64,000 nucleotides of DNA from NCBI RefSeq assembly GCF_000455345.1, contig NZ_HG315690.1:1873360-1937359 (forward strand), written 5' to 3'. The stretch is from Halopiger goleimassiliensis (GTDB lineage: Archaea > Halobacteriota > Halobacteria > Halobacteriales > Natrialbaceae). The position numbers and the translations under genes are program-made. Position 1 is the first letter of the stretch. Each line of letters starts with the position of its first letter. The notes beneath the pieces were generated by a model. The model did no database searches, was not told where the DNA came from, and worked only from the letters and a program-made list of their open reading frames with translations. This document shows positions 9,003 to 11,873 of this stretch, piece after piece.

Positions 9003-10235
9003 ATGCCATCCAAAGACGAGCCCTCCCAATCGTCCCGTCGTTCCTTCCTCCGAGCGGGCCTAGCGACCGCGTCGATGGCGCTGACGACCAGCACATCGGG
9101 ATGTCTCTCCGGGCTCCCGCCACTCGGCACTAAGCCGTCCTACGCGCGAGTCGACGTCCCCGATGCGACCCCTCCGAACTACCGGCGATGGCTCCCAGCG
9201 CAGGGGACATCTCACGACGACTGGGTCATCACCTACGTAGCGCCTGGCCCCTTCGAAGGACCGGTTCCCGAGGAGTTTGTCGCCCGTCGCGGCGCCCTGC
9301 GGACTGAACTGGATTACTTCGGAATCGGATACGAGAACTACGATAACCTCGTGGTGACGAACCTCGCCACCGTGATCGAAGCGGAGTTCTCCACCGCCGC
9401 CGTCAAATCGACGCTTGCGGAAACCGGCTACGAACCGGATGGGACGTACCGCGAATACGACCTGTACGCTCGGTCGGACGTTCCACGGCGTGCGGCGGTG
9501 AGTGACAACGCGATCGTCTGGACGAGCCGCCAAGTCCACGACGAACCGGATCTCGAAGCCACGATCGACGCTGGACACGGCCACGTCGAGCGCTATCACG
9601 AGGCGAACGACGCGTTCGCGGCCATCACCGAGGCTGTCGGTGCGAGCCGGATGCTTTACGTCGGCGGCGACCACCCGGGACTCAGACCGGCGCTGGCCGA
9701 AATCGGTGCCGACGCGTTTCGGACCGACGACGACGCCGCGTATCATCTCCTGACCGAGCGGTATCCGCCCGACATCGAGCCGTCCGTGGACCGAATTCAA
9801 TTAGCCTTGGAGGATGAGCCCTACGAGCTGACCACGGAAGTGGAGACGGCTGACGTCGGCGTCGACGGCAGGTTCGCGACCGTCGAAGCGCGTGTTCCGT
9901 TCGCGCCGAACCGCGGGCGGGACGCGCTCAACGATCCGCCGCAGGTCACCTGGGGCGCGTCGTTCGATGCCGAGGCTCAGTCGGTGACCCTTCACCACGA
10001 GGCGGGCGAGGAGATCGACGCGGACTGGCTGTGGTATGACGTCGACTTCGACGACGATTACAATGAGATTGAGAAGGAGCCCCTCTGGCCCGGCCGGGAC
10101 AGCGTGGGACCGGGAGACAAGGCGGAGGTCGATCTGAGCGACAGCCCTGACGCGACCGGTATCAGCGTTCTATACGGTACTGACGGTGTCGGATCGAGGA
10201 ATCTGTTTACCTATTTGCTGGGGAGTGACGAATGA
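9003..10235 (+). CDS. Tat-exported lipoprotein of unknown function
   Basis: A 410-residue protein with a twin-arginine signal (SRRSFLRAG, residues 11-19), a short hydrophobic core and a lipobox-like TSGC that would make Cys34 the lipidated residue. The mature part is acidic and appears globular. It has two similar-looking halves around AAVKSTLAETGYE and AITEAVGASRMLYVGGDHPG, followed by a strand-rich C-terminal region (about 260-400) ending SRNLFTYLLG. It would sit on the outer face of the membrane. ATG 9003 is preferred; a GTG two codons earlier is possible. The function is unknown. It precedes an HTH regulator. Confidence 0.8.
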   Translation: MPSKDEPSQSSRRSFLRAGLATASMALTTSTSGCLSGLPPLGTKPSYARVDVPDATPPNYRRWLPAQGTSHDDWVITYVAPGPFEGPVPEEFVARRGALRTELDYFGIGYENYDNLVVTNLATVIEAEFSTAAVKSTLAETGYEPDGTYREYDLYARSDVPRRAAVSDNAIVWTSRQVHDEPDLEATIDAGHGHVERYHEANDAFAAITEAVGASRMLYVGGDHPGLRPALAEIGADAFRTDDDAAYHLLTERYPPDIEPSVDRIQLALEDEPYELTTEVETADVGVDGRFATVEARVPFAPNRGRDALNDPPQVTWGASFDAEAQSVTLHHEAGEEIDADWLWYDVDFDDDYNEIEKEPLWPGRDSVGPGDKAEVDLSDSPDATGISVLYGTDGVGSRNLFTYLLGSDE

Positions 10236-10339
10236 GCCGAACCGCGCGTCCCCGTCCGCCTGGACGCCATGGCCCGACAGGCGAGCCGCCGCACCGTCCG
10301 GGGACTCGATCGATTGAGCGCAAATTATTTTTCACTGGT

Positions 10340-10699
10340 ATGACAGACAAGTCTGTGAACGAGGATCTCGACCTGACTGACATCACGGCGCTGTTGGACG
10401 ACGATTACGTCCTGTCGATCATCGTCGCGACGAGCGTGGAACCGCTTTCGGCGAAGGAACTCGGCGAACGGTGCGATCTATCGGTCACGTCGATCTATCG
10501 GCGCGTCGATCGGCTGCGCCGCTTCGATCTCCTCAAGGAGCGGACCAGGCCCCGCTGCGACGGCCATCACGAGACGGTGTATGTTTCCGCACTTGACCGG
10601 TTCGAGCTGACGATCGACGAAGGTGAGCTGGACTGGACGGTTGATCGGACCAGCGACGATGTCGCCGACGAACTCTCGCAGATGTGGGGTGACCTCTGA
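10340..10699 (+). CDS. Winged helix-turn-helix transcriptional regulator
   Basis: A 119-residue ArsR-like DNA-binding protein. Helices span DDDYVLSIIVATSVEPLSAKELGERC, followed by the recognition helix LSVTSIYRRVDRLRRFDLLKE and a wing RPRCDGHHETVYVS. The acidic C-terminal third may mediate dimerisation. ATG 10340 was chosen because the domain starts shortly after it and an AT-rich element (10320-10332) lies just upstream; the frame is open further upstream only as Pro/Arg-rich shadow. It stops 1 base before the small membrane protein gene, so the two are probably co-transcribed and work together. Confidence 0.88.
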   Translation: MTDKSVNEDLDLTDITALLDDDYVLSIIVATSVEPLSAKELGERCDLSVTSIYRRVDRLRRFDLLKERTRPRCDGHHETVYVSALDRFELTIDEGELDWTVDRTSDDVADELSQMWGDL

Positions 10700-10700
10700 G

Positions 10701-11018
10701 ATGGTCGGATTCACCTCGGCCATCGGCCTCGCCGCCGGCGCCGCGGCGACCGGGTCGGCCGCCGTCGGACTCTACATCGGCGTCCACGCCTACCGCGGCC
10801 TCCGACGCAACGACGACCGTTCGATGAAGTACCTTTCGGCCGGGATGATCATCCTTTTCGTCGTAACCTACGTCACCGCTCTGGTCGGCCAAGGTCTCAT
10901 CACCTTTCGGATCGTCCCGGTCCGCTACCAGAATATGTTTCGTCTGATGGTACGGCTCTTCCAACTGACCGGGCTTGTCACCATCGCGTACTCGCTACGC
11001 GTCGCCGCCCGGAACTGA
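10701..11018 (+). CDS. Small three-helix membrane protein
   Basis: A 105-residue protein with three hydrophobic helices at about 3-27, 46-66 and 80-100, joined by short basic loops (YRGLRRNDDR). It is encoded directly behind the winged-HTH regulator (TGA, one base, ATG). Such HTH/small-membrane-protein pairs are common in haloarchaea, and a membrane-anchored signalling or regulator-sequestering role is a reasonable inference. No enzymatic motif is visible. Confidence 0.8.
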   Translation: MVGFTSAIGLAAGAAATGSAAVGLYIGVHAYRGLRRNDDRSMKYLSAGMIILFVVTYVTALVGQGLITFRIVPVRYQNMFRLMVRLFQLTGLVTIAYSLRVAARN

Positions 11019-11286
11019 ACGGTCGTCCGTCATACCTCCCGAAAGATACGTGACGCGCCTATTGAGACTCCTGCATGAGCGACTGGGGTAGTACTTTCGT
11101 TCGCAATTACAAACAGTGGGATGCGGGGATGACGAAACCTCGCCATCCGCCGAGTTGGAAGTTAGGCCTCCGGTGTTTCGTTCCCGTTGCGACGGGGACC
11201 GAACAGGTGGTTACCTCAACGTCGGACCGCCTCGATCGCGAATCCGAATATTCCGATGGGAATTCCTCACAAAGTGGAAGGAACAA
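11019..11286. other. Intergenic region, no gene recognised
   Basis: About 270 bases between the membrane protein and the palindromic element. An 84-codon frame (11075-11329) exists but runs into the palindrome, has an unconvincing composition and no recognisable features. It is not called as a gene. Confidence 0.5.
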
Positions 11287-11550
11287 CAGTTGTTGTAAAT
11301 ACGACTTCTTTATTCAGTCTTCAACGTGATTTTCTCCTGCTGATTTTCCCCATCACACATGAGTTATCTCATCCGGTGACTTTCGCATTTCTCTCCGATT
11401 TCTGGTACTGGTCTGACGAGGTTCGACCAGTACCAGAAATCGGAGTGAAACGGAGAAACAGTGGGGTGGAAAATCCGAACGATGACAGGCGAATCGGCGA
11501 CGAACCATCACGCGGTTTCGTGAATAAAGAAATCGCATTCACAACAACTG
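11287..11550. mobile_element. 264-bp palindromic element (MITE-like)
   Basis: The two ends, 11287-11316 and 11521-11550, are inverted repeats of 30 bp matching at 27 positions. At the centre, 11393-11413 and 11425-11445 are a perfect 21-bp inverted repeat around an 11-base loop. Both pairs share the same centre (about 11419), and the segments between them also show weak inverted similarity. The whole is therefore one long, partly decayed palindrome. It has no transposase and is AT-richer than its surroundings. It could be a non-autonomous transposable element or an inverted duplication. No clear target-site duplication was found. Confidence 0.6.
11393..11445. repeat. Perfect 21-bp inverted repeat (hairpin core)
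   Basis: Left arm 11393-11413 and right arm 11425-11445 are exact reverse complements, separated by TGACGAGGTTC. Allowing one mismatch, the arms extend outward by about five more base pairs. It forms the centre of the larger palindrome. Confidence 0.9.
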
Positions 11551-11873
11551 ATAATGCCCTCTACAGCCTCAAAACCCGTAGTCTCGATGAGGACACAGAT
11601 GACTCTGCTCTCGATGCTACCACAAGTGAGGCAGAGACAAAAGACACCCAAGAGGTTCTCAACTACGAGCAGGCTATCGACGAGGGTATTGAAACACTTG
11701 ACAGCGGCGGTGAGATTTCTGTCGACCTCCTTCACGATCTTCACAAAACGCTGCTCACGGACGTTCCAGAGGACCGGATCGAGACTGACACGATTGGTGC
11801 ATACAAGACCGTTCCAAACCATCTGGGAAAGTTCTACGCAGAACGGTGCTTACGGTATGCGGCCAACGATTAA
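11551..11873 (+). pseudogene. Truncated Fic-family protein remnant
   Basis: The translated frame contains KDTQEVLNYEQAIDEGIE and ISVDLLHDLHKTLLTDVP followed by GAYKTVPNHLG. These match the helical region before the active site of Fic/Doc AMP-transferases. The frame then diverges (FYAERCLRYAAND) and stops before any HPFxxGNG catalytic motif. The N-terminal part is also missing, because the reading frame runs out of the palindromic element. The fragment is AT-richer than neighbouring genes, which is consistent with horizontal origin and decay. It is not expected to be active. Confidence 0.7.

Follow-up and report, generated by a model that had tools for sequence, protein, structure and literature searches.

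HRAMP has been described as a haloarchaeal RAMP module (PMC8730458; figure legend of PMC12669027), and in the available parts of these two papers it is not placed on transposons. Among the small transposase-free elements of haloarchaea, the accessible part of one source gives ISH2, mobilised by ISH8 in Halobacterium, as an example of a MITE (PMC10264941), and palindrome-associated, IS605-related elements (PATEs), which have neither terminal inverted repeats (TIRs) nor target duplications, are described for Haloquadratum in the part of the relevant paper that was consulted (PMC3119063). Here we analyse a 264-bp palindromic block at positions 11287–11550 of a 64,000-nucleotide stretch of the Halopiger goleimassiliensis genome (the window). 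In all likelihood this block is an orphan, chimeric, transposase-free remnant in which the RAMP-side ends of two HRAMP-bearing transposons stand in inverted orientation.

The features of the block and of its relatives are collected in Table 1. The outer arms (30 bp, 90% complementary) and the inner arms (26 bp, 96% complementary, with a perfect 21-bp repeat inside) have a common centre, in agreement with a first-pass annotation of this DNA that had noted both repeats and their concentric arrangement. The same annotation regarded the whole block as a single decaying palindrome, a description that holds for the tips and the core only, since between the arms, with the inner core set aside, 61 of 105 columns (58%) are identical in the two halves. 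Alignment of the left half to the reverse-complemented right half scores 74, and none of 2000 centres drawn at random from the window scores above 42. Because only the 30 and 26 bp pair well, survival of the block is unremarkable, contrary to the suggestion that an unstable long palindrome had persisted here. The block is A+T-rich (46% G+C compared with 66% in the window) and, as had been stated, lacks a transposase: its 264 bp hold gene-end remnants only. A profile search of the 64-kb window found no further degenerate ends.

Table 1. Features of the palindromic block, its surroundings and related transposons (numbers without a locus name are window positions)
Feature	Position or locus	Strand	Detail
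Left terminal inverted repeat, RAMP-end type	11287..11316	+	profile score 49.8; best non-element match in window 0.7
Right terminal inverted repeat, RAMP-end type	11521..11550	-	profile score 49.2
Inner palindrome, left arm	11388..11413		
Inner palindrome, right arm	11425..11450		
Left half, terminal ~140 bp of 'CAA'-subtype HRAMP-transposon RAMP end	11287..11427	+	nearest rows all CAA
Right half, terminal ~126 bp of 'TGA'-subtype RAMP end	11425..11550	-	closest ends 85-88% identical
Last codons of Cas5-like gene (...SSDQYQKSERNAKVTG) and stop	11369..11428	-	cf. ...RSDQHQNSEEKTKVTG in L068
Last codons of second Cas5-like gene copy (...FDQYQKSE) and stop	11410..11448	+	
ACAA at the left flank, no match to the right-hand target copy	11283..11286		
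ATAA, right-hand target copy	11551..11554		same 4 bp in uninterrupted fic of G118
fic gene relic, about 95 codons	11553..11837	+	93% identical to intact G118 Fic
Left flank, unrelated to fic	11019..11286		not matched over its full length in any of 124 other family genomes
Transposase and trio between TIRs, identical 4-bp flanks	L134		GTAA; 11.8 kb
Transposase and trio between TIRs, identical 4-bp flanks	L135		ATAC; 6.6 kb
Transposase and trio between TIRs, identical 4-bp flanks	L136		ATAA; 7.3 kb
Transposase and trio between TIRs, identical 4-bp flanks	L226		GTAA; 6.0 kb
Transposase and trio between TIRs, identical 4-bp flanks	L227		TTAT; 6.3 kb

A degenerate pattern derived from the outer 30 bp is present in 80 of the 125 genomes of the host family (the genome of origin included), whereas a backwards control pattern gave no match in any of the 125. 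The outer 30 bp are the TIR of a large family of haloarchaeal transposons, whose related elements measure about 2–12 kb, end in TIRs of 30 bp and have the same 4 bp (NTAN) on both sides; such ends, which the first-pass annotation had proposed to look for at other sites, recur at numerous loci, where they are accompanied by target duplications of 4 bp. The exact TIR was not found in viral contigs, and the phage records searched gave no match. Two convergent TIR-like matches 99 bp apart (L217 12853–12951) are perhaps the smallest unit of the family.

For both halves of the palindrome, the longer of the matches run on into the end of a Cas5-like gene (PADLOC Cmr3, E 6e-8), upstream of which lie a Csm3/Cas7-like gene (E 2e-4) and the gene for a third protein without a family; an NCBIfam match to TIGR03986 (1.4e-3) was also obtained in this trio. 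Judged from sequence, the composition of the trio fits HRAMP: it comprises diverged Cas5 and Cas7 homologues in haloarchaea, and the two elements checked contain no spaced, CRISPR-like direct repeats and hence no CRISPR array. The composition of HRAMP used for this assignment is in part the one reportedly given in the original 2019 paper. Structures modelled with AlphaFold reach a mean pLDDT of only 38 for the Cas5-like and 45 for the Cas7-like protein and carry no weight, and neither PDB profile searches with these two proteins nor a single-sequence PDB search with the transposase returned a match.

With the Cas5-like protein as the only query, 45 loci were detected in genome contigs, every one in a haloarchaeal or uncultured-archaeal record, and the 32 that looked near full length were kept. 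In 30 of these 32 a TIR lies 74–129 bp beyond the end of the gene match (none was found at L223 and L224), while the TIR profile gave only 18 further matches in 600 kb, both strands counted, with partner ends among these matches. For 29 of the ends (the 30 with a TIR minus L211, where the available sequence stops 355 bp upstream of the gene), the 4 bp beyond the tip read NTAN in 26 cases, and six had a partner end flanked by the identical 4 bp, compared with 0.2 expected with other NTAN words. No partner was found for the remaining 23 within the DNA stretches examined, so that in this data the second boundary is missing for most elements. A transposase match was detected in 7 of the 32 loci.

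Several elements carry a DDE transposase of 600–630 aa. One of them, from Halopiger djelfimassiliensis (G011, L064/L208), is 5.76 kb long, is bounded by a TIR and ATAT on either side, and encodes the trio together with a DDE transposase of 609 residues (PF01609, 6.6e-10); further elements with transposase and trio between TIRs are listed in Table 1. The same kind of ends and flanks, with no intact transposase, was seen in L066, L070, L071/L213, L073, L225 and L228. TIR pairs with matched flanks were recovered in 5 of 10 stretches in a first set and in 3 of 13 in a second, the others having one end, unmatched ends or none. Residues D322, D401 and E515 (numbering of P0001), which we take to be the catalytic ones on the model of the IS4 family, are invariant among five aligned transposases with the PF01609 domain.

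Additional genes were observed in or near such elements. A 1260-aa protein is encoded next to the transposase gene in the 11.8-kb element of G055 (L134 8743–12522, minus strand) and has weak matches to STAND NTPases (3e-5, below cut-off). In Halosimplex pelagicum the RAMP trio is accompanied, at a distance of a few kb and in the opposite orientation, by another one that has diverged from it (L216 16326–19527, minus strand). In G045 a TnpB-like fragment lies immediately upstream of the RAMP trio (L067 9336–9995, minus strand), and L072 6325–6984 seems similar to this fragment, judged by its first residues. A transposase of 619 aa that shares 32% identity with the enzyme of the HRAMP transposons is encoded in G084 (L137 7252–9111), a genome without a listed Cas5-like match; no TIRs of the HRAMP-transposon type were detected near it.

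Comparison of Halobacterium plasmids points to movement of such an element. The joined flanks of the element in Halobacterium salinarum DSM 3754 (L226) were compared with plasmid records and gave 13 matching records, all from Halobacterium: in six, the 500-bp joined query is uninterrupted (97.8%), and in the other seven the best place breaks at the junction. The 6.0-kb HRAMP-like transposon occupies this site in strains NRC-1 (L256 574–6581) and DSM 3754 (L226 4962–10969) and is precisely absent from it in the six other records, with GTAA present once at the empty site and on both sides of the occupied one. In NRC-1 the ends lie on pNRC200 and enclose a gene annotated 'transposase' (VNG_RS11545). 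The NRC-1 copy includes a gene for a Phd/YefM antitoxin as well.

At either tip the palindrome has the end type that adjoins the Cas5-like gene, not the transposase-side type, and the centre of the block encodes Cas5-like C-terminal residues on both strands, GRTSSDQYQKSERNAKVTG followed by a stop leftward and GLTRFDQYQKSE followed by a stop rightward. The two ends have different ancestry. The left half is 79–83% identical to CAA-subtype ends, with 84% for Halosimplex among the sequences used for the tree, and the right half is closest to the G055 end (88%); since the halves are only 79–88% like any known end, their exact parents are unsampled. In a tree of terminal sequences the branch that separates the subtypes is supported at 99/98, and the same branch is recovered at 98.9/99 when all rows and columns are used. 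The inner arms match each other at 23 of 26 positions, compared with 16–19 of 24 for the parents compared, a likeness that suggests homogenisation by fold-back copying or strand switching.

The right end of the block adjoins ATAATGCCCTCTAC..., which continues as a relic of fic. As the first-pass annotation had it, this is a truncated Fic gene, with similarity to intact Fic proteins of ~400 aa. In G118 the fic gene is intact, a 408-codon frame that reads GACTATAATGCTCTCTAC through the site without interruption, and the right end therefore marks a precise insertion at ATAA. No similarity to fic was found in the left flank, which gave two short matches of ~32 bp in the 124 other family genomes. 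Because this flank is not fic, the left half and its flank come from a second event, either a deletion from the tip or the fusion itself. A matched target duplication is absent around the block (ACAA on the left, ATAA on the right), and this copy thus gives no sign that the unit transposed as a whole. An HTH plus DUF7521 gene pair lies just to the left of the palindrome (10232–11018), and such a pair is also the cargo of a 1459-bp TIR-bounded element with CTAG flanks in G025 (L047 1585–2381).

The genome of origin contains no other copy of the block, no other end with the TIR pattern, no Cas5-like gene at E 1e-8, no cognate transposase at E 1e-10 and no ISH3-family match at E 1e-3. With no second copy, HRAMP genes or matching transposase in its host, the block is an orphan, and it has no evident function.

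Could the block nonetheless be a genuine MITE with two ends of the RAMP type, which jumped whole into fic before an adjacent deletion rearranged its left flank? We regard this as possible but doubtful. The right junction is that of a clean NTAN insertion in fic, the left flank adjoins the TIR tip exactly, and other TIR pairs bound transposase-free units of 173–1459 bp. Among 17 such pairs, chosen by eye from convergent TIRs (L053 duplicates L030), 14 have identical 4-bp flanks; the flanks mismatch in L036 and L040 and share 5 bp in L059. Their cargo includes a methyltransferase, a bacterio-opsin-activator-like regulator, the HTH plus DUF7521 pair, and an RHH-type DNA-binding protein beside a small ORF that is RelE-like by eye and has no Pfam hit. 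However, none of these 17 units is palindromic inside (best alignment score 0, against 28 in the window), the complete block was found in no other genome among 125 of the family and 392 of the order, and the two halves are of separate ancestry. The label 'MITE-like' proposed earlier is broadly right for a transposase-free unit with transposon TIRs and its right end in fic, but not in the sense of a many-copy MITE.

A functional structured RNA or regulatory hairpin is very improbable. Fold prediction, one of the checks suggested in the first-pass annotation, did give a very stable RNA structure (-116 kcal/mol), and the strand folds with z -10.4 as RNA and z -10.7 as DNA relative to shuffles. 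A search of Rfam, however, returned no match above threshold and only sub-threshold look-alikes of miRNA hairpins, RNAalifold predicted no pairs and hence no conserved structure in 21 related single ends, and the block is not conserved in place. The reading as a decaying local inverted duplication, which the first-pass annotation had offered, we consider hardly credible: the concentric arms and the strong fold agree with it, but each half derives from a different subtype of the element, and an AU test rejected the tree in which they are sisters (p=2e-5; very divergent rows L221 and L222 dropped and inner-palindrome columns removed). Finally, the chance that the block is a PATE, which it resembles in being haloarchaeal, palindromic and transposase-free, is negligible, since PATEs have IS605-like near-terminal palindromes and lack TIRs and target duplications (PMC3119063, in the part consulted), whereas the block has the TIRs of a DDE transposon.

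The preferred reading, a chimera of two RAMP-side ends, starts from a haloarchaeal parent transposon that has TIRs of 30 bp and an NTAN duplication of 4 bp and carries a DDE transposase at one end and the HRAMP-like Cas5/Cas7 trio at the opposite end. In the block, a TIR, a spacer of ~90 bp and the last Cas5-like codons are retained in each half, the two halves coming from different subtypes. Two such elements, or one mosaic, may have collapsed by deletion or by fold-back strand switching within the gene-end sequence common to both ends, an event that could also have evened out the inner 26-bp arms, and the N-terminal part of fic was probably lost at the left junction. Against this reading, no second copy of the palindrome defines the block as an element, and it has no target duplication of its own. 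Since two transposase recognition ends are kept, the block could in principle move if a cognate transposase arrived.

Taken alone the block is a modest relic, but it is a pointer to transposon-borne HRAMP that deserves follow-up. That HRAMP-like modules travel on transposons is a link that we did not find in the literature; it is likely to be new, although this is not certain because most subscription papers fall outside the coverage of the search. What emerges is an unexplained CRISPR-derived, HRAMP-like module within transposons that have defined ends, a defined target duplication and strain polymorphism in H. salinarum NRC-1, so that a model archaeon is available for direct tests of how it spreads and what it does. 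The end sequence also allows non-autonomous relatives with methyltransferases, regulators or an RHH-type antitoxin-like gene to be recognised across haloarchaea. A far-reaching and rather improbable extension is that HRAMP is not just cargo: an IS4-superfamily transposon would have captured the CRISPR-derived Cas5/Cas7 module and would use it, perhaps with a guide RNA from its own end, to pick targets or suppress rivals as an array-less archaeal counterpart of CAST, the palindrome being a fossil of two colliding elements.

Compared with ISH3, the parent element has a related DDE transposase domain, and some ISH3 TIRs also begin with CAGT. Its transposases nevertheless score 82, 116, 122 and 131 bits against NCBIfam NF033541 (ISH3), short of the cut-off of 225 bits; the TIRs of ISH3 have other sequences (e.g. 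CAGTACCTCACAAAGC), ISH3 duplications are 5 bp instead of 4 bp, and the parent-type TIR was found at none of 30 ISH3 loci. ISH3 insertion sequences were accordingly rejected as the mobiliser because of their TIRs and the length of their duplications. With MITEs such as ISH2 the block shares the absence of a transposase gene and termini in common with an autonomous element; it differs in being single-copy as a whole, where MITEs have several dispersed copies, in lacking a matched target-site duplication and in having halves of two subtypes. CAST elements (PMC8730458, in its available part) are likewise transposons that carry CRISPR-derived effector genes. They have Tn7-like transposition genes and a crRNA array, whereas in the parent element no Tn7-like genes, CRISPR array or evidence of RNA guidance were seen, and its transposase is a DDE enzyme of the IS4 superfamily. 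In gene content the parent trio resembles HRAMP, both being haloarchaeal and array-less with Cas5-like and Cas7-like genes and an uncharacterised third protein. The difference is that the trio described here lies inside transposons bounded by TIRs and target duplications, sometimes next to a DDE transposase gene, and that the palindrome retains only the last codons of the trio.
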